NCBI RefSeq assembly: GCF_026151205.1
Contig: NC_087072.1
Coordinates: 15,949,669-16,013,668, forward strand
Direction: 5' to 3'
Origin: Bolinopsis microptera
Lineage: Eukaryota; Ctenophora; Tentaculata; Lobata; Bolinopsidae
Length of the DNA: 64,000 nucleotides
Under the pieces are notes generated by a model. It worked only from the letters and a program-made list of their open reading frames with translations, was not told where the DNA came from and searched no databases. Positions 29,913-62,799 of the stretch are shown piece by piece (the stretch's first letter is position 1; every line of letters begins with the position of its first letter). The translations under genes were made by a program, and so were the position numbers.

Positions 29913-29920
29913 GCTATGCT

Positions 29921-32900
29921 ATGACCTCACCCATCGGTTCACCCGGTGGGTCACCATTTGGAGAGAGAAAATCCTACAAGAAATTCGAGCCGCGGAGGAT
30001 GTCCTCTCGATTCTCTAGGCAGGAATCTGCGAATTCGAGTGATGGAGATGATTTCAGATCGATGGCCAGAAGAATGTCAAAATCTGCTGCAAAGAGCAGT
30101 CACGTGATGGACCCTGCTGCACGACTAGCTGCTCAAAAGAAACTAGAGGCCGACGAGAAGCTCAGGTTACAGAAAGAGATTGAGGACGTGAAGAACAAAA
30201 TGAACAACGTCGAGACAGTCGAGAAAACGGGATTCAATTACGATCCATCCAAAGTAAAGGGTCAGATTGAGATAGAGATAACAGAGGCAGAGGAGGTTGT
30301 GTTTGATGGTCCTCAGGAGAAAGAGCAGGAGTTTAAAGAGTGGTTAGAGGAGATAATGTCACAAGGGTGGAGTGACGAGGTTAAGGAGCTTGTGTCTGGG
30401 AGGAAGAAAGTAACTAAAGCCAATCTGCTGAGAGCGAGAAAGAGGAGTATTGTGAGAAGGTACAGTATTATTGTTCCTGATTTAAAGGACCAGTACCAGC
30501 TTGCTTCAGAGGAAGATGAGTGGACTGAGGAGGAGAAACTCAGACGAGAAGTTGAGCGGAGATTTTTATCTGAGGTTGACTTGGATTACAGCATCGAGAA
30601 GCTGTCCAATGATGCGCAGTGGATGGCAGAGATTCAGGAGTTGGTGGGTAGTAAGAAAATAATTAATCATCATAATCTTGAAAACGCAAGAAGACGTAAT
30701 ATAGTCCGAAGCTCCGAGCAAAAGTATCCTGGATGCAAATACGACCTCATCCTTGAACCTGACGAGTTTACAGATGAGGAGTTAGAAAGGCAAAAGCTTG
30801 ACCGAGAAATCCAGGTGATACGGATCATAGTGGATGACAGCAACGATATTGAAGTCATCGTAGAGTCTCTGAGTAAGAAATGGATTTTTAATCTCGATGA
30901 CTTAGATAAACAGAAAAAGAAAAGAAACAAAAAGAATATATTCAACCTCCTTGTTCGACAGCTTATTAAAGAAGCTAAGGATAAATTCCCTGATCTTGAA
31001 TATCACGTAGATTTAGAAGAGGATGAATACACAGACGAGGAACAGAGGCGGAGAGATTTTGAGGGTGCTGTGAATCATATAGATGCTGAGGTAGGTGGTC
31101 TGTCCACCGAGGAACTAGTTGAAATGTATCCTGACTTAGTTCCCCGATTGGATGAGAATAATCGGGTTGTATCTCGGGACAATGCAGTTCGCTTACTCAA
31201 ACGGGACGCTTTAATTAAAATCTATGGAGAAGGGGATAATTACATGTTGAAGTACCATGAACTCTCCGATGACTGCTTTGAACTTAACGATAGGGGGCTC
31301 GCTCTTCAGTTTATCAACTCCAAAATGGAAGAAATTGATGAAAAGTTGGAAGATAAAGAGAACTTTTTGTCAAATTTCTCGGATGAGCTTGCATACTTTA
31401 GCTCTATATTGGCACATACAAGTTCTGAGAACGTTTGGCAATTTTGTCTAAATCGAATCAAAACCGAAGCAATAAAACTATTTCCAGACTGTGGAATAGA
31501 GAAGCCCACCCCAGAATATGACCTAACCGACGAAGGAAGAGCTTTTATAAAACTAATGGCAGATTTCTCTGAACTGGACTCACTGCTAGAGAATGTTCCA
31601 GAATCGGTTCTTTTAGCAGAGAGTGCCTGGGTGAGACAACGAGCGTTTCTGGAGTCCCTAAAGACCAAAGTGTGTGGAAAGAACATAATAACCGTGCAAA
31701 AGCAGAAGTTGTACGATGAGTTCAAACGAGACTTCCCTGATTTTGACTATGAAGAGATCTTCCCCTTCGAAGATTTCACTTATGGGGAAATGGCAGTCAT
31801 GAAAGCTGAAGAAAAGCAAGCACGCTACAGCGTTATCTGTGAGAAACTTGAACAAGACCTAACGGATTCTAAAATCAGTCTTGATAGAGCTCATAAACGA
31901 TCAGAGCTCGAGGGAGATAGGCTTGAAAACCATCTTGAAGAATCTGAATGGAAAGAGGAGCTGGGCCAAATCAAATTAATAGACAATTTGCCTGTAAACA
32001 GGAAAAATCTTTTCGAATTCAAGGCTCGTAACTTGGTTGCAAAGTACAGAAAAATGCACCAGGAATATGATTTTACAGAATATAATGAAATTCCTCATGA
32101 GTACGAAACAGAAGATGAGGGATTCATCACAGCTGTGGGTTGTCTTACTTGTGAGATTAAAACTGACACTGCTTTCTTTGATAGCAACAGCGAAGGTAGC
32201 AGCCCTATCAAGTATCTCTCAGCGGAAGGAGACCCCTGCCCCCAGGGACCAACCCTTCCCGCTATTCCTGATCTCAGCGATACTGATACAAGCGTTCCCA
32301 GTTTAACACCATCCCCTTATGATCTCCAAAAAGGTAAGTTCTTCGAGGGTATTGAAGAAGAGAAAAGCACTGGAGAAACTCAGAAAAGAACAGAAGACCA
32401 CGTTGATACACAAAACGAAAGAATTCCCGTCATCGACCATGATCAAAGCACCATCAATGTCTTACCTAAGAACAGCATTGACATTAATGCGGATAATCAT
32501 GCTGTTAAACAGCAAGATAATCAGTTGTCCGAGACAACCAATATACATGAAGAAAGTGCAGATCAAAACAATAAACAACTATTTTTGCAACCCAGTGGTG
32601 ACCCTGATATCAACAGTTATAATACAGTTAATAAGGATAGTAATGAGATTGCTAGACAAAAAACTGAACAGAGCGCAGATAATCTTCAAAATGCTAACCT
32701 GATCGATCAAAAACACGGACAGCTTGTTGATGTTAATCAAGCTGATGAAAAGCACAATGGCCTATCGAAAGATAGTATTAAGAAGACCCACTTTGCTGCG
32801 CAACATGACAAAAAGATAACAGAAAATGGCCATGAAGATAGTGGGGACCTGACAGATTGTCTTGATATCCGAGCAACAGAGGACTCTAATTATATCAGTA

Positions 32901-35900
32901 ATATTGGAGTTGCTAAGAGGGCAGGTGGTATTGAGCTTAGTGACTATATTCAGGGAAGCCTACTAGACAATCATATTGATTCAAATGAAGATAATCAAGA
33001 GAATTCTGTGAACACAGACTCTGTCGGGCCACAGGGCAACCGAGGTTCTTCTGAAGAAAGAGACCACAACTGTGTTGATAAGCAACAGAATGTTGAAGCT
33101 GAGTTATCTTCTGAGCAAGATAAAGTTGGCTCCCTCAGTGCTCAAACAAGGAACACAGCCAAAATTGCTGATAACAAGGTCGACGAGCAACCTGCAAGCG
33201 AAGAACTCCACGCTGAATCCAGAGCAGTGGAATCGAATTCTGATAGAAAAGACATCATTCTCCAAGATACGAATCCTGATATTAATAGTTTTGCGAAAAA
33301 GCAACCAGAAAACACGCAACAATGTCCTTCAGTTAAAATTGAAATCCCTACACAATTGCCTGCTGAAAATGAGGATCATCTTGAAGATTTTGCCGATGTT
33401 GTTACACTCAATTTTGACGGAAATCCTAAAAACGATAAACTCGTCGGAGAAATCAGGACCGGAGAATCTGATGCTAATAGAAAAGAAATCATTGTCCAAA
33501 ATGAGAATTCTGAGATTGACAGTGTTGTGAAGATGCAACCAGAAAACTCGCAAGATGAAACTTCTGTTCAGAACGACAAAGCACTGCCTGTGGAGAATAA
33601 AGTGGTGCATCTTGAAGATTTTGCTGACGTTGTGACACTAAACATTCCAGAAGATGTAAGCCCGTCAGGTGAAAATAGTGTTCCACTGGAAAGAGAAGTT
33701 AGTAAGGGACAGTCTATTGATCGTCATCGTTCGAAGGATTCTGTTGATACCGACTTTGTTGCGCAACATAATGCAGATAATCTGATCAATGGTCATGAAG
33801 AAATTGAGGATAATGGTGACCTAACGAATTCCTTTAACAATCAAACTGCAGAGGACGTCTCTAATACCATCAGAGATAGTCAAGTCACCAAGGGTCCGAG
33901 TGAAATGGGACTCAATAGTAAAGTCAAGGAAGACACCAGTTCAGGAAACAATTTCGAACCAACGAGTACTACAAATGATTCTGTGTTGAGTGACTTATCA
34001 GGAGGCTCTTCTGGTCGTCCTGCTGTTGAAATTCAAATCGAGGAATCCGAATTGGATAGTAGCTTTGAAAGAAGTGACCATGCTAACTCTGATGCTGACA
34101 AAATAGATTTCAGAATGTCAGAGCCATCTAGATCATTTATTGAAGGGAACGAAGATCTTATTCTGAATCCTGAAGTTAAATGTTTGTGGAATGAAACCGA
34201 TTCTGTGCTGAACGTAGACAACCAAACGCCCATCATTGGTAATAATGTTAATCCGCATGTTACTTCCATCGAATCTGCTACAACCGTTCCGTCTATTGAA
34301 AAGGCCGTTGACCAGACTCAACAGAGCAAGCGAGGTTTTTCAGAAGAAACTTCCAATAATCAAAACCACGCTGATATCTTTGAAACTAAGCAACAGAATG
34401 TTGAAACTGGGTTAACATCTGAGCAAGACAAAGTTGGCATCCCTAGTCCTCAAGCATTGGATTCAGCCGAACCTGTTGATAATATCATCGACAGAAAATC
34501 TAATAATGTCGACCACGGTGCTGAATCCAGAGTTGTGGAATCGTACGATACTAAAAAAGACAACATTCGCCAGGATACGAAATCTAAGATTGATAGTGCT
34601 CTGAAGAAGCATCCAGATAACGTGCAACAAGACGAAATCACCAAACCATTGCCTAAAAGCACAAACTATAGTCTTGAGACAAAGGCACTTTATGAAAGGA
34701 CTGTCCAGAAAAAGGCAAAAACTGTTAACCAAGAAGAATCTCCTGACACAATTTATACACCGAGTGGTCAGAAAATGATCCCTCAAACCGATCGATCAAC
34801 AGAGGGCACTATTCAGAAGCCTGTTTCTAAATCTACTGATGCACTCGGCAAGAAGAATGCAAATGATCGCATGCGAGATGCAAATAGTCATGATAATGCC
34901 GTCGAACAGCCGGATGTTGAGGTAGATGGATCTGTCGACAGCAGGGTTGAACGTCCTGATGTTTTGTGTCCACAAGGATTTGATTTCGATAACATCGAAG
35001 TTGATGACGATTTGGAGTCTTGCACATTACCTTCCGGTTTAATGCTGACTCCCCATGATCCGATGACTTCACCGTTCCCCAGCCACGGTTACGTTAATCC
35101 TCTCAAGACATTCGAAAGTCGGGAACCAGATGTTAATTCTGCGTCAACTTTATGTAATGGAGTTGCCCACAGAGATTCTGCATATGAATCTAGATCCACT
35201 TTGAAAAGTGAGGACGAAGTCCATCGTCCTTCAGGAAACAATTCGCCTAATGTTGGCCTTGGAATCAAGTTCCAAGCACCCGAAAGCGATGAAACTGAAG
35301 AAATAGAAACTGAAGAAAACAATGTACTGACAGGAACTGGCTTGAATCTTGTGAATCTCGCTGCTTCGAAATCAGAGTCGTTTGGGAGTGATAGCGTGTT
35401 CTTGAACTCATCCCCTAGTCCACAGCTTCTAGAAACTGCTGACGAATTGTCTGAGGCTACTCAATATTCAGGAGCTGAGGATTCAGAGGCTACCGAAGCT
35501 GGTTCGGGCCCTGACGAGATGGAACAAACAGAGTTTTCTGGTAATGACGGAGACACTGAGTACAGTCCTGCCGATGAAAGTCTTCTGAATAAAACCTCAT
35601 CTGATCCACCTAACCAACTTACTTTACCTGGAAAAACTATATCCCAGATGAGGAACTCTTCGACATCTGGATCTTCAGATGATGAAACCGATGACAAAAA
35701 GACCAACAGAAGTCCCAAACGTAAGAAGTTGTCTGGTTCCGTAGCTCCAGAACAGCATCCTATAATGAAGCGACAAGAAGAGTACAACAGACGAAATTCT
35801 ATTTTAGAAAGCAAAAAGTTATCTGCCCTTAGTAAAAAGTCTCTTAATTCAGACGACACCCCTACCGGACGTGCGCCAGATCAAGAAACGACCCCAACCA

Positions 35901-36322
35901 GGGAAGAGTCTTCATCGTCAAGACCTTCCTCGCTGCCAATGAGAAAGCCAGTCAAACGAACTAAAAGTAACGAAGGGGTTGTGACACCCAATTTCGATCA
36001 CATCAAGTCGACATATAAACTAGAAAAACAGAATCCGCTCTACGATCGAAGCAAATACGTCAAAGTTGCTACCCTTGAGGAAAAACATGTGGCATCAGAA
36101 CCCCTACTCGAAGGACTCCTGCCTAAGAAATTTTACGAACAGAAGCTTTCGTATGATCTCAACAAAGATGGCGATGCCGCTAATTCGACACCAAAAGGTC
36201 CCCAGAAAATTCATAACAGAAGCGATTATCATACGACTGGCCATATGTTGTCGGAAATCATGAAGGAACGAAAACTTGATCGTGAAAAGGAAGATAACAT
36301 CATTACAGATTTGGATCTTGCG
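29921..36322 (+). CDS. Giant exon G1 (2134 codons) of a putative GAR-domain cytolinker
   Basis: One uninterrupted 6.4-kb exon: acceptor CCAG at 29912, ATG at 29921, phase-0 donor GTGAGT at 36323. Residues 44-122 form the module shared with G2 and G3 (DDFRSMARRM ... VKNKMNNVETVEKTGFNYD). Residues 120-735 contain seven degenerate ~85-aa repeats, each ending in a DExTDEE-like acidic box. Residues 760-1850 are acidic, Asn/Asp/Gln/Ser-rich, largely disordered, with internal duplications. A basic Ser-rich tail has SSLPMRKPVKRTKS, then the shared LLEGLLPKKFYEQKLS and TTGHMLSEIM, ending ITDLDLA. Reading phase 0 from the acceptor meets a stop at once, and exon 16 upstream leaves phase 0, so this looks like a first coding exon. 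It can splice in frame to the GAR exon at 60270. No family recognised for the interior. Long open frame, splice sites and homology to G2/G3 make coding status strong; the splicing partner is inferred. Confidence 0.85.
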
Positions 36323-37344
36323 GTGAGTCTACAGCCACTAACATTGCATGATATGATTTCAGCAGCATTCCACATTTTTGTTAATAAATATATGCAACAA
36401 TGATTATTTCAGCATGGTCGAATGTTTATCTTTAATTATGATATCCGATTGATTGTATTATGATAAGCATTTATGAGCACTGAAGCAAGCGAAGTGATCT
36501 CAGCTCTGAATGTTCTAAAGCACTCACGATCAAACTTTGCTGACTGGAGTTATCAGTAGTATGCTGGTTACTGATTCATTATTAGTACCTGAAGCCCCGA
36601 CGATGGCAATTGGAATAAAAGTTTATAATACACCATTTAACGACGCATGTTTCTTGTCAGTTTTCATTTTAATTTTAGTTGTATAATTATAGTTGACTAT
36701 ATTCAAATTCACTCAGCGTTGCTAACAGAGAATATTTAAGTTAAGTATTTGTTAACCGTTCGCGAAAATATTTGATTCTATGAGTTAAATGGATAATGTT
36801 GATGCCATAAAAACAGTTTTGCGAAGCCGTTTGCTTTAAATCAATTAGATTTTTCTTGTAAAGCCCAATAAATAGTGGAATCCTTAAGATTTTTATATAT
36901 TACTCCACAGTCCATGCCAGTTGCGAAAGATTGCCTTGCGTCAACGAATTCAGTTCTTATCATCAATTTTTTGCTCAGAGAGTTGACCCTTTTCCCGTCC
37001 CCCCACTTATAGCATAGAGTTTGGAAATCTAACAAGCTGAGAATTTTAATTACTTTTGAGTTTTTTAAGTTCTTCACGATATTTTCAGCTTTTGGTCGAT
37101 ATGAACCTTAGTAACTACCATTTTTTTCGGCATATTTGATCGTTGGATATTTTTGCAGATTTGATTCTGAAAAAAACTTGTTCGTGTGCACCGATTTTTT
37201 TGTTCGTACATTGTGACAGTCGGCCAACTTCTTTCTAAAAATTCTTTATTTTAATACTAGTATCAGCAGATCAAAAAATATGGAATAAAGCGTGGCCCAA
37301 AGATGGACTGAAGACAAAGATCATGTATCTTTAAGGATTAGGAA
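36323..37344. other. Spacer between giant exons G1 and G2
   Basis: No supported exon. A pyrimidine-rich acceptor-like site (TTCTTTATTTTAATACTAG) about 80 bases before the G2 ATG could attach a noncoding leader to G2. The region may include a G2 promoter; no motif was recognised. Confidence 0.45.
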
Positions 37345-39882
37345 ATGAGCTACAACAGGTTCAAAGAATTGTCTGGAACTAGCAACAAGAAACCGTATCA
37401 ACCGAAGGTTCGAGCTCAAGATGAAGATGGACCTGTCAGTGAATTCAAGCAGTTGCAACAAAAACTCCAACAAAAGAAATCAAAATGGACTGTTCTAGAT
37501 TCAAAGAAGGATGCCCTGAAGAAATTGGCCGATGAAGAAAAGGAACGTTTGCGGAGAATTGAGGAGCTGAAAAATTCCATGCAGCATGTAGACACCAAAG
37601 AAATGGAGTTTGGGTATGATGAAGAAACACTCGCTGCTTTGAGAGAAAAGAGGAGGCTAGAAGAAGAAGAAAGACTAAGACAAATTCAACAAGAAGAGGA
37701 CCGATTGCGAAAACTAGAGGAAGAGCGTCAGGCTATAGAAGCAAAAGAAGCAAAACGTGTTGCTGACGAAGAAGCAAGGCGGTTAGCCAGACAAAAATCA
37801 AAGGAAGAAGCAAACCGGCTTGCTAAAGAAGCAAAGCGGTTAGCTGAAGAAGAAGCACAACAACTTGCTGAAGAAGAAGCAAAGCGGTTAGCCGAAGAAG
37901 AAACACGACGACTTGCTGAAGAAGAAGCAAAGCGTCTAGATGAAGAAGCAAAGCGGCTAGCTGAAGAAGAAGCACGGCGACTTGCTGAAGAAGAAGCAAA
38001 ACAGCTTGCTGAAGAAGCAAGGCGGTTAGCTGAAGAAGAAGCACGACGACTTGCTGAAGAAGAGGCAAGACAGATTGCTGAGAAAGAAGCAAAACAGCTT
38101 GCTGAAGAAGCAAAGCGGTTATCTGAAGAAGAAGCACGACGACTTGCTGAAGAAGAAGCAAAGCGGTTAGCTGAAGAAGAGGCAAGACAGGTTGCCGAGG
38201 AAGAAGCAAAGCAGCTATATGAAGAAGCAAAGCGGTTAGCTGAAGAAGCAAAGCGGTTGTTAGCTGAAGAAGAAGCACGACGACTTGCCGAAGAGGAAGC
38301 AAAGCGGTTAGCTGAAGAAGAGGCAAGACAGGTTGCCGAGGAAGAAGCAAAGCAGCTAGATGAAGAAGCAAAGCGGTTAGCTAAAGAAGCAAAGCGGTTA
38401 GCCGAAGAAGAAGCACAACGACTTGCTAAAGAAGAGGCAACGCGATTAGCTGAAGAGGAAGCAAGTCGACTTGCTGAAGAAGAAGCAAAGCGGTTAGCTG
38501 AAGAAGAAGCAAGTCGACTTGCTGAAGAAGAAGCAAAGCGGTTAGCTGAAGAAGAGGCAAGACATATTGCTGAAGAAAAAGCACGACGACTTGCCGAAGA
38601 AGCAAAGCGGGTAGCTGAAGAAGAAGCACAACGACTTGCTAAAGAAGAGGCAAAGCGGTTAGCTGAAGAAGAAGCACGACGAATTGCTGGGGAAGAAGCA
38701 AGACGGCTTGCTGAAAAAGAAACAAAACGAATTGCTGATGAAGAAGCACAACGACTTGCTAAAGAAGAGGCAAAGCGGTTAGCTGAAGAAGAAGCACGAC
38801 GAATTGCTGGGGAAGAAGCAAGACGGCTTGCTGAAAAAGAAACAAAACGAATTGCTGATGAAGAAGCACGAGGAATTGCTGGAGAAGAAGCAAGACGGCT
38901 TGCTGAAGAAGAAACAAAACGAATTGCCGATGAAGAAGCAAGACGGATTGCTGATGCAGATGCAAAACAGATAGCTGAAGAAGAAGCAAAACAGCTGGCC
39001 GAAGCAAAACGGGTTGCCGAGGAATTAGCAAGGCGGATTGCGCAAGAAGAAATCAGTCGATTAGCTGATGAACAAGCAATGAGGTTGGTCAGAGAAGAAA
39101 TTGACCGTCTCGCTGAGGAAGAGCTAAAACAGCTTACTGAAGATGATACAGAATGGCTTGATGAAGCGGACGCGAGAGGACACGACTCCGATCCGCTCGG
39201 GAATCTTTTCAGAAAGAATTCCAACTCATTCTTTCACAGCCATAAAGAGAAGTCAGGTAGCATAGGGGACCTACGACGCAGCTCCAGGGAATTTCTTGCC
39301 AAAAGTTTGGAAAACATCACTGGAACCATTTCTGACGATGAAGAACTTCTTAAAGAAGCCGTTGAGTTGCTAGAAAAAGAACATGAACTAGAAGAATCTC
39401 GCAAACGGAAGACCACCAGATTACCACATCCTGGGAAGCACGCTCGACTCGAAAAAGCAAGATCGCTTGCTCTGGAGGCTGAAAAAGAACGGCGACTTTC
39501 AGCTGAATCGCCCGTGACTACGCGATCTCGACAACAGTCAATAGTTGAAAAAAGAATATCAAGGTTACGGAAACCTACTTCCTACGCCTCCAAAATCAGA
39601 CGAGTTAAATCATGTGAAAACATGTTAGACTTGTTTCACTCTAATGAGGCCCCGAAACTCACTTCAAAACCCTTGCTGAACGGCTTGCTCCCTGATCAGT
39701 TCTACCAACAAAAACTCTCCCAAATGTCCTCTTACAACAGCGAGGTGGACCTCAGTAGTGTTTCCCTGGACATGGGAGCAAAGACAACCGGCCACAAGTA
39801 CTGGAACCACATCATGAAAAAGACACTCTTCAGAAGAACAGACAGCTCGGCACATGACATTGAGACTGACCTTGACAGCGTG
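37345..39882 (+). CDS. Giant exon G2 (846 codons) with octad helical repeat
   Basis: ATG at 37345, two codons after an in-frame TAG, which favours a first coding exon. Phase-0 donor GTGAGT at 39883. Residues 31-104 are the shared N-terminal module (SEFKQLQQKLQQKKSKW ... LKNSMQHVD ... MEFGYDEET). Residues about 130-600 are dozens of copies of an 8-residue unit of the AKRLAEEE type, giving a long, highly charged single-helix or octad coiled-coil rod. After the rod comes a Ser-rich basic tail with KTTRLPHPGKHAR and KIRRVKSCENML, then the shared LLNGLLPDQFYQQKLS and TTGHKYWNHIM, ending ETDLDSV. The rod would act as a rigid spacer. The 24-bp coding repeat is expanding: one 120-bp block is duplicated almost exactly. 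Coding status is strong; joining to the GAR exon or the 41-codon exon is inferred. Confidence 0.85.
37740..39160 (+). repeat. Coding minisatellite, 24-bp unit (8 residues)
   Basis: In-frame tandem units like GCAAAGCGGTTAGCTGAAGA plus AGAA encode AKRLAEEE variants. Copies vary in the basic pair (KR, RR, KQ) and in the acidic triplet. The blocks 38641-38760 and 38761-38880 are identical over about 110 bases, showing recent unequal exchange in multiples of 24 bp that keeps the frame. Confidence 0.95.
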
Positions 39883-39965
39883 GTGAGTAAGTTTTGTGAT
39901 TGGTCGTGGAGGCACGTGACATACCATCCAATACGGTAAACTACTAGTATTTTTATAGTGCAGAT

Positions 39966-40124: not shown

Positions 40125-40324
40125 GTGCAGATCGAAAAATTCGATTTGCATGCTCAAAGAAACTGCATGTTTATGTTTCTATTAAGTGATTGATTTTATA
40201 TCAAAAATGTAATCGATTGTAAAACATTTTCGTGATTGTAACTTTATGTGACCTTGTTATTATTATCGTGGCACCGTAACTTGGGTATTGTCGTTGAGAG
40301 TGACGTGGGCATTTTGTTTTTTAG

Positions 40325-40447: not shown

Positions 40448-42527
40448 GTGAGTGCTTCATGTCCTATTTTTTCCATCGCACCGAGCTGCCTTACTGTTGC
40501 ATGTGGAACGCTCTTCCCTTTCAACTTCTTTGGTTGCGTTTCTGTTTATCTCTGCGGTTTTCACAACTCTTGCATGATGTCTTCAGGATATGGGGCATGT
40601 TTTATGTTTATCCAATATTCGCATGGTATATTATATGTTTTTATAGTTAAAGGGGTATTTATTTGTATTATTATTGCAAGCTTGCATATTTGGTTAAAGT
40701 TAAACATCAAGGAAACATTTATAAGGTAGAAAATCATACGGTCGAAAAACTAATATGATAACCGATACTCATAAATCATGTTGATTGTAGCAATATTATG
40801 GTTTATTAATTGTTGACGTCTGTGCTTAAACTGGGTCAATAAACCCGATCAACTCTACATCTTTTGGAAAAAAGGGCTTGCCGAGTATCGTTTAAAGAGA
40901 AACGCGTTTAATAATTGATAATGGTATAACCATCATGACTGGTGCCTAATTCAACCACCATCCCATTTTTGAAGTGTCATTTTCTGGAAATGCGGCTGCG
41001 TAACTGAGGAAACTGAACTGTGATTTTATGAAGCTTAATTTATTTCAAATTTCTGGTTAAGCTTTATTGCTGTCAGGGTTAGCTGGTTCACTCTCAAATA
41101 TCGTTCAAAGATATTTACCATTAAATGCTATGTTAACGTCATAATACACTACGTTTGCTAATATTTGCAGAGAGTATTCAACTCTCTGTTTCTTAGACAC
41201 GCGGTATGATAAACATTAGAGTTCTCGGAGTTTTAAAGAATTAGCACTAGCCCACAAGTTTGGCTGTGAAAGTCACTGACATTCTCAGTCAATGTTTGTC
41301 TCCAATAATGACAGATAGCTGCAAACTTTCTATGTGTAACAGCCTGATAGAGCTGTGAGCTATTTACATGCAGCAGTGACATAACGTTAAGGAATCTTAG
41401 GACTCCGGGCGTGAAACTAACCCTGGTCGGGTTACTGATTTTTAAGTTTTCCCGTGACATAATATCGCTAATATTAACTATTTTCAGCCTAAAGTGGGTT
41501 TAAGTCATTTTACTACTGTTTAAGTCATTCAACTCCTGGGAGCACAAAAATACTTGTGTAGAAATAACGTCTAATGAATCTGTAAATACATTGATTATAG
41601 CAGTACTACAAATTTAACATTTTTAATATTGGAAAATGCTTAATTATTGGATAAATAAATTCACCATTCTTGACGCAGAAAAAGAGGTATTAAAACTTAG
41701 GTCAACCACAGGCTCCTCGAGTGTATTCCACATGAAGTATGCACACCACTCCACTGCTAATATAAGTCCTTCACTCAACTATTTGATTCCATTACTCTCC
41801 ATTCACCCAAAGTACCAAGTTTTGACCAGCCAGTGGTGACACGTTTTCCCGACTCACTAAAATAGAAACTACAATGACAGGCACCCACGGCAGGTTTCTA
41901 ATCGAATTATCTCCACCTGAGCTCCACAAAACATCTCCTTTCTGTCTGCCTAAACTGCTGCAAGAAGTTTGGATTTGGGTGGCAACGTTAATTTATTCTA
42001 TAATTTCTTTAATTTTCTTTTTCTGAAATCCATAGCTGGAGTTGTGTCATGTTTGGGCTTTAAGTTGCAAGTTACAATGCAAGGACAACACAACCAACTT
42101 GCCTATATTTGCTTGTAATTCACCAAACATTTAGTGGATTTGGTTGCATACAGCCATGCGGATACCGCAACTTATTAGTTTCGTGAAATGTTCCCAATTA
42201 GATTTTCCTGAGGGCTTCCCTCAGCTATCTGTTGACGTGGTTCTCTAGTTCGTGTTGACATATTTTGCTACCATTAGTTGACGTTCCCAAGTCTTTTTAT
42301 TGTACACGTAATGATTACTTCATTAGTGTCACTTTCTTGATTGAGGTGATTTTATACTAACACCAAAGTCAGTGTAAGCAGATTTGCAGAGCTGTAATTT
42401 TTCAGTGCAATAGGAAGCCAACCGATTGTTAGACATGTAGACGAAGTTAAAGATTACTATTAGTCATGATTTACAATCCACATTTATTCTATCGTAATTA
42501 ATAAACTTCTCGCAGTCCCATATAATA
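40448..42527. other. Spacer before giant exon G3
   Basis: No exon supported in 2.1 kb. The segment ends with the acceptor CTTCTCGCAG at 42515, twelve bases before the G3 ATG. It may contain a G3-specific promoter; none recognised. Confidence 0.45.
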
Positions 42528-44456
42528 ATGGCGTTTCTTAATTCCCCGATTCTAAAAGCTCGCCGACTTGGGGCCTTATCTCCAGAGACGGAGAGAAAAT
42601 ACAAACTTGCTCGAGATCGCCCTCATAAGCCAGATCTGAGTGACTTTAAGAAACTGCATGAGAGTATAGCTAAAACTCAAAAAAGCTTTGCTCTTTTCGA
42701 CATGAAAGCAAGCGAAAACGCTTTAAAGAGAATAAATGAAGAGACAAAAAAACACACAGCAAAACTTGATATCATGAAGGAGGGGTTCAACAAAGTCAAA
42801 GTGAACGAGAAAGTTGGATTTGAGTTTGATGAACAAGTAGTTAAAGATGTGAGGGAGAGAATCATGTGCAGCATGATAGATCCTCTTGGAGGAATGTCTA
42901 CGTCCAGTATCTCCGTTTCAAGGAGGTCTTCAAGATGCTCTGATCTGGACCTCACCGCAACGTCAGCCACACTTCTACCTGACCTAACTGAGGACAGTTC
43001 CACCTTGAAACCTCAGTTCTGTCAGGACACTGAAGATTTGTTCGACACTGACACAGAGAGTATTCTGTCTGACTTTGAGATGGAAATCATTAACGCTTCT
43101 TTGATATCTCATGATTTCCCTGATTACAAATTTCCCACTCAAAGAAAAATAGAGCAGCTAGGAATGGATATAAAAAGTCCTACTTCCCACTTATCCCAGA
43201 AAAGTATCATACTGTCATCGTCGGGCATGTTCTCTATAGATCACGATGAAGGAGAGTATGCTATAGTAAATGAGGTTAGGGTCTCTCCAAACGAACACAA
43301 TGAAATTTCTGATCATGTGGAGGAAATACTTTCATCCTCAGATACAGAAAATGATATATCTGAGACGTATTACTCTAATCCAGTAGTCAAGGAAAGTCAA
43401 GACGGTGGAGAGGGCTTGGGAATGACAACAGTGAGCAGCGAGCCAGTTTGTATCACGTGTTCCTCTTGGGACGCCTGCACGTGGCTTTGTTCACAAGAGG
43501 ATAACGAAGATATTGTAAAACACCATCTAAACATGGTCATTCAAGAAGACAAGAGCCGACCTGTTCAAATAGCAGTCTTTAAATCTCCTATTTTGGCTCG
43601 TAAGGTATCGACTAACGAGAATGCGGAAAAGCTTGAGATTACGGGCGTGGATCTAGTTCACTCAAACCCAGGCCTAGTCAAGGTTGACATCCCCGGAAAT
43701 AATCAAACATTGCAGACTTGTGTCACGCAATTGGAAGAATCCGACTTTTATGAATCTGAAGAAGGGTCCTCGTTTGAGGAATTCACAACACCTGGAGAAT
43801 TAGAATCAGATAAAGATGGCGGAGCACTCCATACCTACCTTGAGAACTTGAACAAGTATGATAATTTAGACTCCGTATCTGTGTGTGAGTCTCTGGACAC
43901 CAAATCACTGGAATCTCTTGACTTTGAGAGAATGGAACTTATGGTATCTGGCGGAGAGAAGATGGTTACATTTGAAACTAATCCTGCCCAGAAAAACAGA
44001 CGGCTAGGTGCGATGAAGAACATGAGAAATGAGAAAGTGAAAAGTCTCGTAAAGCAGGCATCCAACGTGCTTCACTCTGCTTCAGCTGACTTTGCTAGAT
44101 TTGGTCTGAAGAGGAGTGGAAGCTCAGCGAATCTAAAAGTAGCTAGATCAAGCTCGACCACATCATTCAACAGGCGGAGTTACATACCAGCCCCTAACTA
44201 TAACCTCACAGCTTCTCTTTTTCCGGGTAAAAAGGAGAAACTTAATCTGGACACCAGGCTTAAACTTCGAAACAAAGATCTTATCGAGGTTGAGCCACTC
44301 CCAAGGTGGGCTAAGAAACCTATATTTGCCACTACAACAGCAGGCCACAAGGCTTGGTACGAGAGAGCACAGGATATGATAGAGGGAAGACGCAAGGAGA
44401 TAGCAAACATGAATACTTTACAGGAAGATTCTGGTCATCAAGACCTCGACATCATT
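42528..44456 (+). CDS. Giant exon G3 (643 codons), acidic, with SxIP motif
   Basis: ATG at 42528, just after a clean CTTCTCGCAG acceptor; phase-0 donor GTGAGT at 44457. Residues 36-113 are the shared module (DLSDFKKLHESIAKTQKSF ... MKEGFNKVKVNEKVGFEFD). The middle (about 120-480) is acidic and Ser-rich with no repeat, and includes an odd Cys/Trp cluster (CITCSSWDACTWLC). The C-terminal third is basic and Ser-rich, with RSGSSANLKVARSSS and RRSYIPAPNY, a canonical SxIP EB1-binding motif. It closes with TTAGHKAWYERAQDMIEG and QDLDII, aligned with the ends of G1 and G2. Unlike G1 and G2 it also stays open in phase 0 back to the acceptor (SHII before the Met), so internal use is possible. Coding status is strong; partner exons are inferred. 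Confidence 0.85.
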
Positions 44457-45321
44457 GTGAGTAGTCCTTAAAGACCAGTATAAGTTTACTTAGATTTAAG
44501 TTTCAACAAGTATAACAAAGTATCGCAAACAATGTATGTTATATGTACGAATTATCGCATAATGATAAATAATAGTGTAGTATCGGAATCATTATCACGC
44601 GAGAACTGAACCGCACACATATGAAAAGTATTGTAATTCCCGATACCAATTCCCAAAAATATTGGTCATCGTTTTATCATCGGACAGTTTTCCTGAAATT
44701 GTGCAGTTACCACTCCCCACTCATGTCACAAAACCATTTTCGCTTAAACATTTTCTTACATGTGCTATAGAAGCAAATTATCGATGACTGAAGCTGAACT
44801 ATGAGCGTGTCATGTGACTAAATCTAGCGATATCATTAGTCTATCTCATTTACATTCAAGACAGGCCAGGTTAGTTAAGACTGCAATTATTTAGGGCGTA
44901 TTAGTATATGTGGAATTGTAGCCGGTTTTGCAACATAACACGACGTGATTTTATTGCAAATTGCGCGGCTCATTTTTATTTGGAGCCGCGCACTGACTTG
45001 ACGTTATAAATCTTTTGCGCCTCACGCTAGAAAACGTTTGCGGAGTAAACCCTGTCTTCTATTAGTCGATTCTCAAAAGCGTACTATTTATTCGTTCAGA
45101 AGTACAAACGCTAATTACGTGCCGCCGGTTTATCTTGTAACGTGTTGTTAAACTTGTTGAAATATTTCATAACATCCTTGACGCGGAAGTGCTGGCAGTG
45201 TGACACATCAAGGATTATAACAGAACGTGTTGCCGACCTTATTCGATTACTCTCCATTTATTTGCTTGCGTTTGTTTACTTGTTAGCGAGCTGTTAAATA
45301 GACTCAGGCTATGTTGTTATC
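44457..45321. other. Spacer between G3 and the CH exon
   Basis: No exon supported. It ends with an ACTCAG acceptor-like site 14 bases before the CH-exon ATG. It is a candidate location for the promoter or 5' UTR of the CH isoform. Confidence 0.45.
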
Positions 45322-46113: not shown

Positions 46114-49100
46114 GTACTTTCCCCCATTCTGTTATTGATTTGATCGCTGGCTATGTGCTTGTCTCTCCAGAATGTTGAGATCCACTGACCACTTTTATTC
46201 ATTCAGAATGTTACATTTTTTATTTTATTTTTTATTTTATTATAATCTATGGACTCCGTGAACGTTCTGGCACGTGTATGTGCTTGTGATGATTATTCTG
46301 TATATTCTACATACATCGGTGATGGTGCTTGCCTGAGCTCTTATCAATAACTTCACTATCGGTTATACTCCAGTGGTTGCGCCACATTTCCGAAGACTTA
46401 AAAGTGAGCCCCTTTTCTACTTCAGCTTGGAGTTCATAATCTAATATCATGCATGACGTAAGCTGGAATCCTATTACAAGGTCATATTGAGGGAGGAGGG
46501 TTTTTATGAAACGGGGCCGGGTCACAGTATTTTATGCACAATTTATTAATTGTTCAAATTACCTAATTGGGGGAGTATTGAACTATAATCACCTTCTATT
46601 ACATTAGAGCCAACATTGGCTGGGGGGGGGTCAACCTCATTTTACCTCATGAGGCCAGCCAAAAAAGGCAAAATTGGGATGAGGTAAAATGAGGTAAAAT
46701 GAGGTAAATAAATCTAGTTTTCTAAGCCTTTTTTAGAGACAAAAAAGGTTTATTCGAAGTCATTATACTATAATTCGGCAGTATCGAGATAGCCCGACCA
46801 CTGTCCGCGGACAACTGTCCGCGGACACCTGTCTACCAGATCATATTACTGCATAATAACAGTATCCCCTGAATCAAGCAACAGGTGTTTGTGAATAGTT
46901 GATTGGTTACCAGATCATATGAATGGTATGTATGGTATCTTGGATGCAATTAGTTACGACTAGCATAATTAATTGTAGCATAGTAAATTACTGGATCAAA
47001 CTATTGATTACGATTCAAATGTGGTCTCTCGGATATAATTAGTTACGAATAATATTGATGGGGCTGAGTTCATCCGTTTCGTTTTCTCTGAGAGCATAGT
47101 TGTAGTTGTTCAAGAAGGAGTTGATGATAGAAATGATTGATGCAGTCTGATAATAGTTATTGATTATTCTTTATATATTGCATGATGTGAACTGATCTCG
47201 TAAGGTTGCTTAATCGTTTGATAAGCCTTGACACCACCGCTGATTGAAATTCGCGAGCGATGATGTGAACCCTGCTTGATTCAGGGGATGATGTGAACCC
47301 TGCTTGATTCAGGGGATACTGTTATTATGCAGTAATGATCTGGTAGACAGGTGTTCGCGGACAGTTGTCCGCGGACAGTGGTCGGGCTATCTCGATACTG
47401 CCTATAATTCGGGGCTGTGCATGGTCTCCCATGATATTTAATGGTTTATTAGGGGTGATGTGGTCCCTGGGAAGGGGCATTCCCAGTTTAACCTACTTAC
47501 TCTCCAAACTTGGGGTAAATAAAACTTCGCATTATAATTATTATTTATGAAAAGAAAATTGAACATTTCAATTTCCATGATCCATTAGGATATTGTTAAT
47601 AGCACTTGCTAAGTTTTGTAAAGGAATTAGCAATAACTTTAGTGTCACTTTGGCAGTTGCCAATTTATGGGGATATTTCCGCATTGCATGACATGGACCA
47701 TTTAAATAATATCTTAATTTGATATTGCGATTATCGAGTCACTCTGAAACAAATTGTGTCTAACTAGACCAAATGTAAACAACAGTTGTGTATGGAACTG
47801 GATTGGATATCTACATGAATTTAGTCGAAATTGCATAGTGAAAGGTCATTTTATAATAAATTACTCATATAAACTCATACTTCATACAATTCTAAGTTCT
47901 TATGTTTCGCTGTAGAATAAAGGGCGGTTCAAAAAAACCACCTTTCGTTGAAATAATTAGATATCACCTCTAATTAGTTGCTCTATAGGGTCGGGAACAA
48001 CCAAAAATGTTTTTGTGTCTCTTAGGTTTCGTATAATATTGACTTGGGCCACGCCCACATTTTTCACCAATTTTTAACAGGTAAAATTCTCTAAATCGTC
48101 AATTTAGTCACGAAGGAGTATGGAAGGAGTTCTAAATGTGTGCTCCTCTAATTTAAACAGTAGGAAATGGTTAACTTTAGTCGAGGTTTCAGGTCTCTAC
48201 AATGTCGGGAAGTTCCTGCAGAAATTTTCGCATTGCGCCGAAGCGCAAGATTCACAGCACCAAAAGCGAAGGTCGTAGAGACATGAGACCTTGACTAAAG
48301 TTAACCATTTCATACCATTGCTGTAAGAGTATGCCACTTTCAGAGTCCTGAACACACTCCTACAGCTCTTAATCGTCAATTATATGAATTTTACCTGTTA
48401 AAATATATCATCTTTAACTGATGTCAATTTAGTTTAACACTGTTAATTTTTTTTTAAACATAATACTTCACACCAAACTAACGCACAATATGATAGTATA
48501 AAAAAGGAAGGTTTTCCTTGGATTCCAAATTCAACTTTGATTATATCCTGGCACTGATTATCATTTCTCGATTGTTCTCCATTTTCCAATGCAGTCAGCA
48601 AGTTCCAATTAAGGTAGACTAGGTTTTCGAATCTTCATATTATGTTCAGAAGCAGGCCAGAAGGGGTTGTTACCAGAGGAATATCTTCTTGGAACAAGGG
48701 AATTAATGAGGTCTTCATTTATAACTCGTCAGTGACAGTCCGGACAGGATGAGCATTGACGAGATCCACTGATTACTTCATAGCTCGTCATTGATAGGAT
48801 CAGTATTAAATGAGGTCGAATGATTATTTCATAGCTCGTCACTAACTGGATCAGCATAACATGACTAACAACTAACGAGGTCCAGTGATCTCTTGCTGAT
48901 ACGTCAAGACAAGATCAGTAAATAGCTAAAAATATCGAAAAAAATTAGCTTAGAAATTACAGAGTACAAATTCCTTCTTCACAACTAACTCTTCGGCCTC
49001 ATCTTTTTAAATCACTCATTCCCTCTGAAACAAGATAATGCTTAGGACTAGGAGGAACTTAGTTAAATTCTTGTATGATTCAGTAAGAGGAAAATTCCTT

Positions 49101-54589: not shown

Positions 54590-54640
<51 letters not shown>

Positions 54641-54806
54641 ATCTCCAGTGACAGGGTGGGGTGCCAAGCTTTTAACTGCCCCTTATCTCTATTCTCTCTC
54701 TCGCACTTTGTGTCCCGACTCCCCTGACTGTATTTCTAACTGTCCGCTCCTAATTATGCTGGAGATCCTGTCATCACTGGTTGTAGTCAGATCACCCTGC
54801 TGCTTC

Positions 54807-54853
<47 letters not shown>

Positions 54854-57800: not shown

Positions 57801-60800
57801 TTTAGAGGAATGCAGCTGATTGAGGTTTTAGTGGCAGTTAGTTGACTTCGGAATTCGGATAGGAAATATACGTATTAGGGTATTATTTGTATGGTATAGA
57901 AATCTGAAGGGTGGTCACTGGTCATTATTATGTTTCAGCTTGGTATGTGAAAAGTCTCCTGGTAGAGATGCACAACAAATTGATCACTACATCACCCGAC
58001 TCCCCTGGCTATAAGAACCATACATTGTAGGCCATTACTTGCCTGTACGTGAGGGAAGAGGGTTCACTGTAATCTGGGAAAGTAATGAATCTCCCCAATC
58101 TTACATACTCTCAGTAGCACTTGTAGATGTGGTTGCAGCAGCGCACATAAACCTGCACCCTACCCACTACCCAAGTATTAACATGGGCGCAGCACAGTGA
58201 CAACAGCAACACAGTTGATTCCGTTGTAAATTAAATACGTTCTCCACCACTTCAACAAGTCAAGAAACCGGCTATACTTCTGCTGAGTGAGACCGTGTTT
58301 TCTATTTTTATGCACATAGTTGACGGGTACTGGTTGTGTACTAATATACACTCCACTGAGAGAGATATAGAGAGAGAGAGAGTGCGGGGTAGAAGCACAC
58401 ACAGACAGTGATTATTGTGTTTGGGAGGACTCAGTGCTGGGAGAACATGTCCTGCTGGTGTGTATATTGTGGGTATTATCTACTGTACCACCTGATACCT
58501 GTCACTTATCTCCTGTCACAAGATGTAATCACTGAGATATCACGTGGTCTATCATTGAGATATCACGTGGTCTATCATTGAGATGTCATGTGGTCTGCTA
58601 GACAGCTGACTATGTTGTTACAGTTCTGACTTAGATTTAACTTTCCCAACTTTAATACTTTAAATGTTTCCGATTTAAGTCTTTTAACAAAAAGACTGAA
58701 GAGCCTGCAAATCAATATCGGATGTACAGTTTTCTAAAAATAACAAACATTTTTTGTTTAGTCCTAGAAATATGTAGTGATAAAAATAAATTTAGTTTGA
58801 TAGAAATATGTAACAATATTAACTGATAAATGACATGACTTAATACTGACATTTAAACTGATTAACGTTAACACTGACAGACACTAACACAAACATTGAC
58901 AGATCCACGACAGACGACAGCAGTTACTGAAAATGTTTTTCAGACACACAAAACTTCCTTTGTCAGAAGCAGACAAGAGGGTACAGTAAACTTTCGTAGA
59001 TAATAAATATTAGATCTAGTGGACTAGATAGTTGATAGTAGATATTCCTATCATCACGCTTTTCATCACACTTTCATACTTTTCATCACACATTTTTATG
59101 GTTCTTTTAAATGCTCATTATCTAATTGAGAGACTGTCATATATATCCATAAACTTTTTGTTCATTTACCCATGCGAAACAACTAGTTGATTATTGGGCA
59201 CCTTGCTTACCAACCTTAAAAAGATACCACACCAAATTGTCCGTATTTTAGCGTGGAAACAATGATTGCAGTTAGATATGTAACTACTTTTAAGGTCATT
59301 GATCACGGTCAATGAGCAGCGTCAGATGTTAGTAATAATATTAAACGGTGTCATTATACCTTTGACAAAGTTGATTTTGAACGATTAGTAGCATCGACTG
59401 ACAATTCAAATGTATCGGCTGAATAATATATCGACCACTGTGGTCAGCAAGTGCTGACAGATAGCCCTTCTCCAAATTCCATCGCTTGCAAAAGGCACAT
59501 TCTCCACAATCCTCCCTTACACAAATCCATTAAATTAAGGAAATATGTATTGCCACTATTATAATACAATACATGCTTTGCTGAAAATGGTTCACTTTTT
59601 AAGTGAGGCGTGGTTGTGCCAAGTTAACTGCGTACATTGTTTATGGGATAATTACAGTTATTCGCTACTTCGGCTGCTTACAATCTCTGTTATGCGTGGT
59701 GGAGGCATTACTGCATTACCAATTTACATTTACAAGAGGTGGCTTTGTCTCTTCTAATCTACATAAAGAAGTAGTATTAATGCCCACAAAAGTGACGTGA
59801 CTCTTCATGAGCACTAGAACCTGAATTTTAAAAATAGCTGTTTATATAATGCTACAGTTTTTATTGTGTGGCGCTGGGGTTATACAATTATTTATTTGTG
59901 TGTGTGATACCATCACGTAAATAATAGGATAACAAGGAAATGTTAATTGTTGAAATCTTGTTAATGAGAGGATTTGATTAGCCAGGAGTAGTGCAAGTCA
60001 TTATAGTTAATTAGGGCTAATTAGAATTAATTATCCATGTCAAAATTTCCTAGTTCTGATAATTTGATTGAATATAACCGATAAGCTCAAAACTCGACAA
60101 CTCCAATGATCATGGCATGTTTGGCATAAATTATAAAGCTGAAGCCGCTGTTATCTGTTTTACACGTGTAAAGTATTTTCATACTCCCCATACTTTTAAC
60201 ACCTGCTAATTTCAAAACCATATAATTATGCTAATTAATTATCCAATTAACAAGCTATTACCTCTCCAGGTGCGAGCTATTGTATCGAGGTGCACGTGTA
60301 AAACCCCCTTCCAGCTGGACCGAGTAGGAGACGGCAAATACAAACTACCTCACACTAGTCAGATCTTCTTTGTCAGGGTAAGTTTTTTACTTAGTTCTTT
60401 ACTTCTATTTAGTTTTATACTTATTTCTTTATCCAAACTTAGTTCTTTACATACACCTGCTACATGAAGAGGTCTCCTCCTAGTCGTTGGAGTGGCCTGC
60501 ATCACACACATCTTTTCTACGGCGTAACATGTTCCTCCATTCTACTCGTTTAGACTCGTTTAGAACTTAGTTCTTTACTTATACTAATTGTAATCCTCAT
60601 CATCCCTTCACTTGTTCACATTGCATTACACTTATTCTGTAGTTGAGCTTATTAAAGAGTCGCACAGAAAGCTAAACCTGCTACAGTAATTACTCCATTG
60701 TACTAATCTAAAGCTTGTGTGTTTGATGACGTGTTTTCCAGAAAACGAATAACTATTGTTAATGTAAACTATACACAACACTCCAAACACAATACAATAA

Positions 60801-62799
60801 ATACACGACTATTCAAACTTTAGAAACTTTAGCTCAAGCGCCCTCATTGAATTTAACGATGCTTTGTCTGTCTTCACTTTTCTGCCCCTTAATTAATGTG
60901 ATATTTTATACAACCTTTAATCTAATCTGGACTCGTGCGCGCTGTCAATTATAGTGTCTGGAGCCGCAAGTTTTTCATTATCTAGAATTAGAAGTGGAAG
61001 TTTCGTGTATAATTTTCGGGGGAAATATATTCGTCCAATTTGAGTCCTTGCACACATAATCGTATTACATAATCAGGCTGATGACGTAAAAGAGGACAAT
61101 GCAGTGCTAGCAAAACGGGGACCATGTGGTGTAATCCCCATTGTCACCCCAACTCACCCTGTATCACCTCCCTCACCATGTACATAATTCAAGAGTACAC
61201 ACAACACGCACAGTGGTATTTATACATTCCGCACCCCTGTATTCTGATGTACAATATAATTCAGTGTAATCTGTTCATACATTGTTCAGTTTGAAAAGTA
61301 TGTGAGACTTTTTGGTGCGGATAATTCCTTTCCATTTTGTAATGGCGCTGGTTAGCACTATCTTACCCGGTATGATCACAAACATTATGTACATTATGCT
61401 GGTCTAGGAAAATATTATCCCACTGTACATAATTAGATTGTCATACCAAAATTTGGTGTTTGTGAAAAAAGGTTTTTGAAGGTTCGGGTGTTCGATTAAT
61501 TGATTTACATCGGATGTTTGTGTGTGCCGGTATCAAATGGAATGCAATTTACTCCTTGTCACTGATCAGGAATTCCGCTTCGCACTAATTATAGCATTAC
61601 ATTTTTCCCATGAATTTCCAAGGATCTCCATTCCATTTGAAACAGTTCTGAGATTCCATTTGTGTTCCAACTTGAGCCATGTAAGTGGGTCATCATGATG
61701 TTCCTAATAGGTGTACTGTAACCAATAGCTGCAATAGTGCACCCATTTACCGTGGGAAGCAGAATACAAGTCGGGGAATGGACCAAACTTCTGATGATTA
61801 GCAACTTACGAGCGCGCGCATGGTGCTTTACTTGATGTAAATCTGCAGCAGTCTTCATAATTTTGAAGAGGGACGCGCGCACGTTTTATTGCTAGCTTTG
61901 GCGCGTATACGCACCATTGATACCAATTCTCTGTAGTCTGTTCTAGTAGTTTGACTCACTATATATCAAGCTTGGCTGTTGGCCCAACTGCTATGTTGAT
62001 TCTTCCATATTAGCACTATATTTACATGTCTCTTATCTTGCAAGACGCCAAAGCTGCAGACTGCAGACTAAATCACCCTACAGTCAGTCTATTATGTGAA
62101 ACCGTCTCGAATGACCGCAGTGAATATGTCACCATCCAGACATGTTATGTAACATGAGAACTGCTACCGACCTCAGCAGACACGACATTAAACACTGGCT
62201 CTTCATCCTTAAAGCATAGGATCATCCATTCCAACCTTATTTCCATAATTCCATTACCATAACTGTGCGCTTGAGTCATACCCTAAATATCGTGTTTTGT
62301 CATCTTGAGTGCCATTATCTGCTTCACACCTTTGAGTCTGATTGTTCTTTGTTGCGGTTACAGTTCACCTCTTCATGGCTTATTATTCTAACCATATTAT
62401 ACCGGTATGTTTAAGTTGTCTTCAAGTCTATACATAACTGATACGTTTGGTTTTCTACCATTTGCTGAAAAGATTCTTCAGCTGGTAAACCGTTTTTATA
62501 GACTTACAGTCTGCCAAACAATTATCACCGCAGTTAGCATCTGCATTTGAATCGTCGCCCGCCACTAATCACTAACCAACCTCACCATTTCACGCAAACA
62601 AACACACTACCCACTGTCTGCAAATTATCACCTCTCTCGCTGGAATTTCCCTCCACTTACTTCCTGGTAGTAACAAATCTATTTTCAGATCCTGAGGAAC
62701 CACGTGATGGTGCGAGTAGGAGGAGGGTGGGACACTCTCGACCACTTCATCGCCAAACACGACCCCTGTAGAATGAAGTTCAAGCAGATTGTCGGTTAG
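45322..62799 (+). CDS. GAS2L: GAS2-like cytolinker, CH + GAR domains (three exons)
   Basis: Exons 45322-46113, 60270-60377 and 62689-62799, all joined in phase 0, give 336 residues, close to vertebrate GAS2 (about 313). The N-terminal CH domain (about 34-166) is followed by a basic Ser stretch, a Glu run and the GAR domain (about 265-330). Known for the family: the CH domain contacts F-actin, GAR binds microtubules, and [ST]x[IL]P motifs recruit EB proteins, so the product links actin to growing microtubules. The join [16 protein letters not shown] matches the usual spacing before GAR. The first intron is 14.2 kb, the second 2.3 kb. Because the donor is phase 0, as in G1-G3, the GAR exons may also be shared with the giant exons. 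Family assignment is secure; the isoform set is inferred. Confidence 0.88.
46777..47402. mobile_element. 626-bp hAT-type MITE with ~100-bp TIRs
   Basis: The ends are long inverted repeats beginning GGCAGTATCGAGATAGCCCG, extending about 100 bp and including TGTCCGCGGACA palindromes. A perfect 8-bp duplication TATAATTC flanks it (46769-46776, 47403-47410). No transposase. Nested inside the foldback composite, so it is the younger insertion. Confidence 0.8.
48066..48525. repeat. Left long inverted arm of the composite element
   Basis: About 460 bp that reappear in reverse complement at 49238-49692 with scattered mismatches and small indels. It includes an internal inverted repeat (GAAATGGTTAACTTTAGTC against GACTAAAGTTAACCATTTC, 48168-48312), so each arm can also fold on itself. 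Confidence 0.8.
49238..49692. repeat. Right long inverted arm of the composite element
   Basis: Reverse complement of the left arm. Both arms have the same short open frame ([20 protein letters not shown]) in opposite orientation, explained by the duplication and not evidence of a gene. About 710 bp of unique AT-rich sequence separate the arms. Confidence 0.8.
53525..53564 (+). repeat. TG dinucleotide microsatellite
   Basis: About 40 bp of GT/TG repeat with C interruptions. Confidence 0.9.
54594..54638 (+). repeat. AG dinucleotide microsatellite
   Basis: About 45 bp of uninterrupted AG repeat. A CT repeat 170 bp downstream is complementary to it. Confidence 0.95.
54811..54850 (+). repeat. 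CT dinucleotide microsatellite
   Basis: About 40 bp of CT repeat, followed by GAGAGAG. With the AG repeat upstream it forms a potential hairpin with a loop of about 170 bp. Confidence 0.95.
58533..58598 (+). repeat. 23-bp tandem repeat, three copies
   Basis: Unit TGAGATATCACGTGGTCTAT plus CAT; two identical copies and a third with TGTCATG variants. Each contains CACGTG or its variant CATGTG, an E-box core, in the long GAS2-like intron. Confidence 0.85.
60270..60377 (+). CDS. GAS2L: GAR-domain exon 1 of the GAS2-like locus
   Basis: 36 codons, phase 0 both ends, between CTCTCCAG and GTAAGT. It encodes [20 protein letters not shown] then [16 protein letters not shown], the first half of the GAS2-related domain with the conserved CxC and GxY. 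It is the natural common acceptor for all phase-0 upstream donors (CH exon, G1, G2, G3, the 41-codon exon). Confidence 0.9.
60378..62688. other. Last intron of the GAS2-like locus
   Basis: 2.3 kb with no supported exon. It ends in a TCTATTTTCAG acceptor. Nothing else recognised. Confidence 0.55.
62689..62799 (+). CDS. GAS2L: GAR-domain exon 2 and stop of the GAS2-like locus
   Basis: 36 codons plus TAG. It encodes [29 protein letters not shown] and KFKQIVG. The VRVGGGW and KHDPCR signatures are diagnostic of the GAR microtubule-binding domain. The stop is GGT TAG, and GGTTAGT also reads as a possible donor, so some transcripts might extend; the domain itself is complete. Confidence 0.88.

Follow-up and report, generated by a model that had tools for sequence, protein, structure and literature searches.

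A probable GAS2-like cytolinker gene with tandem giant start exons in the ctenophore Bolinopsis microptera

We analyzed a 64,000-nucleotide stretch of the Bolinopsis microptera genome (contig C1, positions 15949669 to 16013668; referred to here as the window), which has a GC content of 38.8%, where 38.5% has been reported genome-wide (PMC11797021). The reading of its sequence that we favor, with moderate confidence, is that of a GAS2-like cytolinker gene in which the N terminus would come from any one of four alternative start exons. Three of these (G1, G2, and G3) are tandem-duplicated giant exons that would skip onto a common GAS2 (GAR) domain.

The window holds six stop-to-stop frames of at least 200 amino acids (aa), and four consecutive ones on the plus strand are G1 (2134 aa), G2 (846 aa), G3 (643 aa), and the exon that encodes a calponin-homology (CH) domain (264 codons). 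An ATG with a purine at −3 opens all four. G1 extends from 29913 to 36322 (ATG at 29921), G2 from 37342 to 39882 (ATG at 37345), G3 from 42516 to 44456 (ATG at 42528), and the CH exon from 45287 to 46113 (ATG at 45322). Downstream of the CH exon, across an intron of 14.2 kb, lies a plus-strand pair of GAR exons, at 60270 to 60377 and 62689 to 62794. An earlier note on this DNA had described three tandem giant exons that each end with a phase-0 GTGAGT donor, and we found these donors at 36323 to 36328, 39883 to 39888, and 44457 to 44462. Its other two landmarks, the phase-0 donor of the CH exon (GTACTT, 46114 to 46119) and the phase-0 acceptor of the GAR exon at 60270, were also confirmed. Elsewhere in the window are a voltage-gated potassium-channel-like open reading frame (ORF) on the minus strand (7408 to 8550; BTB_2 and Ion_trans in Pfam), an upstream plus-strand gene of several probable exons at about 19.5 to 27.0 kb with no Pfam family over the cut-off, and about 55 copies of the 8-bp tandem repeat AGGTTACT at 25471 to 25908.

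Pfam identified the CH domain on the CH isoform joined in silico (PF00307, E = 1.1e-9) and the GAS2 domain on the two joined GAR exons (PF02187, E = 6.4e-30, 103.3 bits). The best match of the CH exon in the Protein Data Bank (PDB) was a GAS2 chain (9kbx, E = 1.1e-30), and that of the GAR was the GAR of MACF1. The single CH domain is confined to the CH exon; a Pfam search of G1, G2, and G3 revealed no CH domain and no tandem CH, plakin domain, or spectrin or plectin repeats. A second GAS2-like gene lies on the minus strand at 19.98 Mb of contig C2, likewise with its GAR in two exons, and by eye its CH domain is apparently split over several exons, in contrast to the single-exon CH in the window. 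Contig C1 has a further GAR match at 2.43 Mb (loci L002 and L013) with two internal TAA stops (an 803-aa ORF with the look of a coiled coil lies some 6 kb away), and a separate GAR locus at 20.56 Mb with long helical-looking ORFs that may be the spectraplakin, a label given by eye.

The giant exons share an N-module, located on the plus strand at 29972 to 30295 in G1, 37348 to 37671 in G2, and 42561 to 42866 in G3. The three raw pair scores were 93, 75, and 92, and none of 1,000 shuffles reached any of them. However, coiled-coil composition raises such simple scores: among 244 control windows, an unrelated coiled-coil ORF reached 68 against G1, 90 against G2, and 59 against G3, and the repeat of G2 itself reached 96. 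Therefore, the only discriminating tests of N-module homology are the profile comparison and the search of the genome. Hidden Markov models built from two N-modules scored the third at 34.1, 38.0, and 34.9 bits, values that were reached by none of 988 to 1,000 shuffles (best, 10.5 bits), none of 70 coiled-coil windows (best, 6.2 bits), and none of 97 to 102 disordered windows (best, 4.4 bits). A genome search with the G2 N-module (E up to 10, four candidates scored) returned only G2 itself, G3 (E = 0.037), and G1 (E = 0.078), although such searches score the best candidates only, and absence elsewhere is not absolute. Whole-G1 and whole-G3 queries matched only themselves and are insensitive compared to the short-module queries, which found relatives. 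By these comparisons the N-modules of G1, G2, and G3 are homologous. The shared N-module of the earlier note is borne out by profile comparison, and the tandem duplication of start exons that it proposed is well supported.

Pfam reported nothing over the cut-off for the complete giant exons (the best was DUF6272 for G3, with E = 0.003 and 17.7 bits where 26.6 are required). The same was true of the N-modules of G1 and G2, the C-module of G2, and one ORF of the candidate tail described below. PDB profile searches gave only weak, chance-like matches, with a best E of 0.028 for the N-module and 0.094 for six of the G1 repeats.

At the other end, the C-modules of G1 (36080 to 36322) and G2 (39646 to 39882) had a pair score of 93 against a shuffle mean of 32, and none of 1,000 shuffles reached it. 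Their profile scores were 21 to 23 bits, and a genome search with the G2 C-module (13 candidates scored) returned G2, G1 (E = 0.077), and two poorer matches elsewhere (E = 1.5 and 3.6). The C-end of G3 (44187 to 44456) behaved differently. Of 1,000 shuffles, 641 and 158 reached its pair scores. Its profile score was 2.7 bits, a value also reached in 21 of 943 shuffles and in 5 of the 103 disordered windows. What it visibly shares with G1 and G2 is only TTAGH and the final DLDxx (DLDII in G3) followed by GTGAGT, so its homology to their C-module was not established. The C-module that had been proposed for all three exons stands for G1 and G2, but neither the pair test nor the profile test supported it for G3.

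Between their ends, the giant exons differ in kind. The G1 interior (30326 to 32164, aa 136 to 748) has at least six divergent units of about 80 aa, with a seventh doubtful. Six of the seven beat every shuffle, and unit 4 did not (10 of 972 shuffles reach it), in a test whose alignment included the left-out row and whose scores are somewhat favorable for that reason. By eye, the repeats are followed by a long low-complexity tail. In the G2 interior (37804 to 39004, about 400 aa), a charged 8-aa unit of the EEAKRLAE type recurs about 50 times, and we take this sequence to form a single long helix. The interior of G3 by eye has neither the repeats or low complexity of G1 nor the charged repeat of G2. 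The extreme divergence of interiors put forward earlier therefore has an alternative, and the interiors may be independent rather than extremely diverged.

Each giant exon has one [ST]x[IL]P motif with a net charge of at least +2 in its last 200 aa: SSLP in a basic, Ser-rich context in G1 (35927 to 35938), TRLP in G2 (39415 to 39426), and SYIP in G3 (44178 to 44189), the last two also in a basic context. The CH exon has two such basic motifs, SALP and TAIP, with a basic motif in its last 104 aa, and G1 and G3 each carry one extra [ST]x[IL]P in an acidic context. The basic motif occurred in shuffled segments at 0.11 for G1, 0.07 for G2, 0.04 for G3, and 0.024 for CH, in a test that was post hoc, as the motif was chosen once the sequences were seen. 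The pattern was defined for GAS2-like proteins (PMC4058111), and by pattern we predict an EB-binding-type motif in every alternative exon.

The giant ORFs run just 4 to 26 codons past the GTGAGT donors to a stop, and long uninterrupted receptor ORFs occur in the Bolinopsis genome. Both observations would fit intronless giant genes that read through unused donors, an explanation that we consider very improbable. The DLD codons differ synonymously among G1, G2, and G3, but GTGAGT makes up the following six bases each time, at the same place in otherwise diverged copies. If these bases were merely Val-Ser codons, two further identical copies would have a p of about 0.002 given the codon use of this gene, and therefore the donors are probably real. 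In addition, the similarity between the exons ends at the donor, and the donors score well among the 3,699 GTs (top 0.4% for G1, 0.5% for G2, and 3.9% for G3). The CH donor is in the top 3.1%, and the donor of GAR exon 2 is fair, as 7.1% of GTs score as high.

The acceptors were more variable. The G1 acceptor, an AG 8 nt 5′ of the ATG, is in the top 0.3% of 4,099 AGs. The likely G2 acceptor (TTAG/GAAATG, with the slash marking the splice site) is 3 nt before the ATG and weak, with 16.7% of AGs scoring as high; AAG/ at 37336 could be used instead. The G3 acceptor (CGCAG/, 12 nt before the ATG) is fair (7.7% of AGs as high). The start of the CH exon is uncertain, with candidate acceptors at 45287 (the best scored), 45302, and 45308; the one 14 nt before the ATG is weak (16.7%) and the one at 35 nt is fair (5.5%). 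Since an AG at least as strong as that of G3 lies within 25 nt of 10.5% of 1,113 random ATGs, the G3, G2, and CH acceptors are individually weak evidence. With these acceptors, the distance to the ATG is 8 nt in G1, 3 nt in G2, 12 nt in G3, and 14 to 35 nt in the CH exon.

The earlier note had argued that in-frame stops forbid the use of the giant exons as internal exons. This held for G1, which reaches a TGA at the fourth codon when read in phase 0 from its acceptor, but the argument is weak for G2, where the upstream TAG is probably the acceptor itself and not an in-frame stop. TTAG/GAAATG resembles the AG that precedes the ATG in several glutamate-receptor genes, which makes a splice site the likely reading of this TAG. 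From TTAG/GAA and CGCAG/TCC, G2 and G3 are open in phase 0, and since they are then readable in phase 0 at both ends, they might instead act as symmetric cassettes of a single chain. We therefore weighed a single giant transcript with G1, G2, G3, and GAR as consecutive exons (about 3,600 aa before GAR) and G2 and G3 as skippable cassettes, which we judge quite unlikely. Their open phase matches the upstream donors, for which we estimate a chance of about 1 in 9 if they were unrelated start exons. However, a Met with a purine at −3 is among the first five codons of both G2 and G3, as expected for start exons. Given Met frequencies of 1 to 3%, we put the chance that two internal exons would both show this at about 1%. 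The homologous G1 is a start exon, and the weak G2 acceptor also counts against the chain.

Acceptors immediately upstream of start codons suggested that the 5′ ends of these exons could be supplied by a spliced leader (SL). Many ctenophore mRNAs receive a spliced leader; in Hormiphora, one was found on 56% of Iso-Seq reads, a value described as a lower bound, and the leaders of Hormiphora and Mnemiopsis end in AATTTGAG (PMC8527503). In B. microptera, a unit with AATTTGAG/GTAAG is arrayed in tandem on contigs C13 (12.78 to 12.95 Mb and 15.24 Mb), C5 (21.34 Mb), and C3 (13.51 Mb), as judged from 40 places scored of 295 candidates (array loci L027, L033, L034, and L055 to L058). Some copies of the unit have many small indels. 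Rfam detected 5S rRNA genes in all three C13 stretches searched (two matches each in L034 and L056 and one in L057). In two arrays these genes lie between the copies of the unit, and SL genes linked to 5S rRNA genes occur in other animals, a common SL arrangement. The unit itself gave a sub-threshold Rfam match to SmY in two stretches (24.5 bits against a cut-off of 39). Two results count against SL genes: the leader pattern with three mismatches had only eight matches, compared to four for the reversed control, and two cuts of a single copy showed no excess of fold stability over shuffles (z = −1.2 and +1.0). We regard the arrayed units as candidate spliced-leader RNA genes. Inside the window, the SL-like sequence ATTTGAGG[TC] had three matches, all on the minus strand and none useful.

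The glutamate receptors allowed a comparison of start sites. The genome has 32 glutamate-receptor matches, 10 of them in open frames of at least 900 aa. At 6 of these 10 loci (L019, L020, and L022 to L025), an AG lies 1 to 6 nt before the ATG of a hydrophobic N terminus, although the six form three groups of close paralogues, and two of their AGs score poorly (−0.94). In a seventh locus (L018), an AG lies 3 nt upstream of a doubtful start codon, and the remaining three have no AG within 6 nt of the ATG. For the two receptors that we searched, the best PDB matches are entries named ML032222a, a Mnemiopsis name.

The join between the giant exons and GAR is the central step of the model, and splicing of G1, G2, and G3 onto GAR is our best reading of the sequence. 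All four start-exon donors are on the same strand and in the same phase as the GAR acceptor, although duplicated exons do not have independent phases, so that chance alone would give a match with the GAR phase in about one of three cases. Further grounds for a single locus are the N-module homology, with no other match in the genome search, the GTGAGT exactly where the shared DLDxx ends, and the result of an exon scan, which found no strong competing partner exon at 46.1 to 60.2 kb. Immediately upstream of the junction, all four start exons end in L-[DE]-x-x. In the solved structure of the GAS2 chain 1v5r, GAR is preceded by LDDAVKRI, which aligns to LDLA/VRAI of a G1-GAR join with low confidence at that place, and MACF1 alignments stop short of the residues before GAR. 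The LDxx ends fit the residues preceding the GAR of GAS2, a suggestive match. A Pfam junction test did not discriminate, with gains of 1.8 to 3.0 bits for the real ends and 1.9 and 2.2 bits for two hand-scrambled ends, one of them an inexact permutation.

These data bear on the alternative in which G1, G2, and G3 are parts of another gene or genes and their donors join small unrecognized exons, with CH-GAR-tail as a separate downstream gene. The CH exon alone gives a complete CH-GAR gene, and AATAAA-type sites are present after G1 and G2. The exon scan was insensitive to short exons, as GAR exon 1 was detected only in part and GAR exon 2 not at all. The length of the CH-GAR intron, together with the many nested genes reported in ctenophores (PMC8527503), also counts against a single locus. 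Against separate genes, the scan found no phase-0 coding exon between the giant exons and only weak candidates in the intron (one in phase 0 at 57607), there was no AATAAA or ATTAAA between G3 and the CH exon, and the LDxx ends match the residues before the GAR of GAS2. On balance, we regard separate genes as unlikely, and we continue with one gene that has four start exons.

In this gene, GAR is probably not the end, and there are candidate tail exons past the window. GAR exon 2 can leave in phase 1 via the GTTAGT donor at 62795; if it is unspliced, a TAG stop follows at 62797 to 62799. Two stop-terminated ORFs lie past the right end of the window, at 1 to 687 and 893 to 2022 of the adjoining stretch (L014). 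The second has a good scored phase-1 acceptor that fits GAR exon 2 and a SRIP motif with a net charge of +7, and the first has a phase-1 acceptor, identified by eye, that also fits. These ORFs may be alternative C-terminal tails, and we infer their membership in the GAS2-like gene.

We propose that one start exon was duplicated in tandem to give G1, G2, and G3, which would have kept the N-module, the C-end (clear in G1 and G2), and the phase-0 donor, and that their interiors were replaced or expanded after duplication. At its 5′ end, each start exon would probably receive either the ctenophore spliced leader or a short noncoding exon, and its 3′ donor would skip the remaining start exons and join GAR at 60270. 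The predicted products are an ordinary CH-GAR protein that links actin with microtubules, as well as three CH-less proteins that end in GAR and the shared tail. Their arms would consist of repeats and low complexity (G1), a charged helix (G2), or a short segment (G3), each with its own EB-type motif. By analogy with GAS2-like proteins, the CH form would bridge actin and microtubules, and the CH-less forms would lack CH-based actin binding. The locus probably serves to combine one microtubule-binding end with different arms. More tentatively, and with less than even confidence, we suggest that alternative leader acceptors choose among the duplicated giant start exons, which would yield four unlike front-ends that each have an EB-tracking motif.

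The single CH domain and GAR resemble those of GAS2 and GAS2-like proteins (GAS2L1 to GAS2L3 and Drosophila Pigs), but we know of no GAS2-like gene with giant CH-less start exons. Spectraplakins and plakins (dystonin, MACF1, Short stop, and plectin) are encoded by giant cytolinker genes with alternative N termini around shared ends. The MACF1-like GAR is a further likeness to them, but the lack of spectrin, plakin, or plectin repeats in G1, G2, and G3 by Pfam sets this gene apart. In the tandem alternative first exons of the protocadherin and plectin type, duplicated variable 5′ exons are spliced onto a constant 3′ part; there the exons are variants of one domain, whereas here the interiors are mutually unlike. 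GAS2-like proteins have [ST]x[IL]P EB-binding motifs in the tail (PMC4058111), similar to the SRIP in the candidate tail past the window, but in the present gene every start exon has an additional motif of this type upstream of GAR. In the Caenorhabditis elegans sma-9/schnurri gene, trans-splicing inside the gene gives shorter transcripts, one of them for a C-terminal isoform (PMC2904332); the present locus differs in having several duplicated giant start exons, and here we infer trans-splicing. In the literature that we searched, which did not extend to subscription papers and preprints, there was no paper on ctenophores and spectraplakins and none that combined at least three of the topics spectraplakin, GAS2, giant exon, and alternative promoters. 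One paper on ctenophores that came up for GAS2 names GAS2L1 just among its references. Long-read cDNA has been reported for B. microptera (PMC10232365).

G1, G2, and G3 supply protein modules without a known family. If the joins are real, a comb jelly built modular cytolinkers by duplicating start exons, in contrast to the addition of spectrin and plakin repeats in spectraplakins, and trans-splicing would select protein architecture besides capping mRNAs. If leader acceptors do choose among the start exons, a deeply branching lineage of animals would possess a programmable cytolinker locus.
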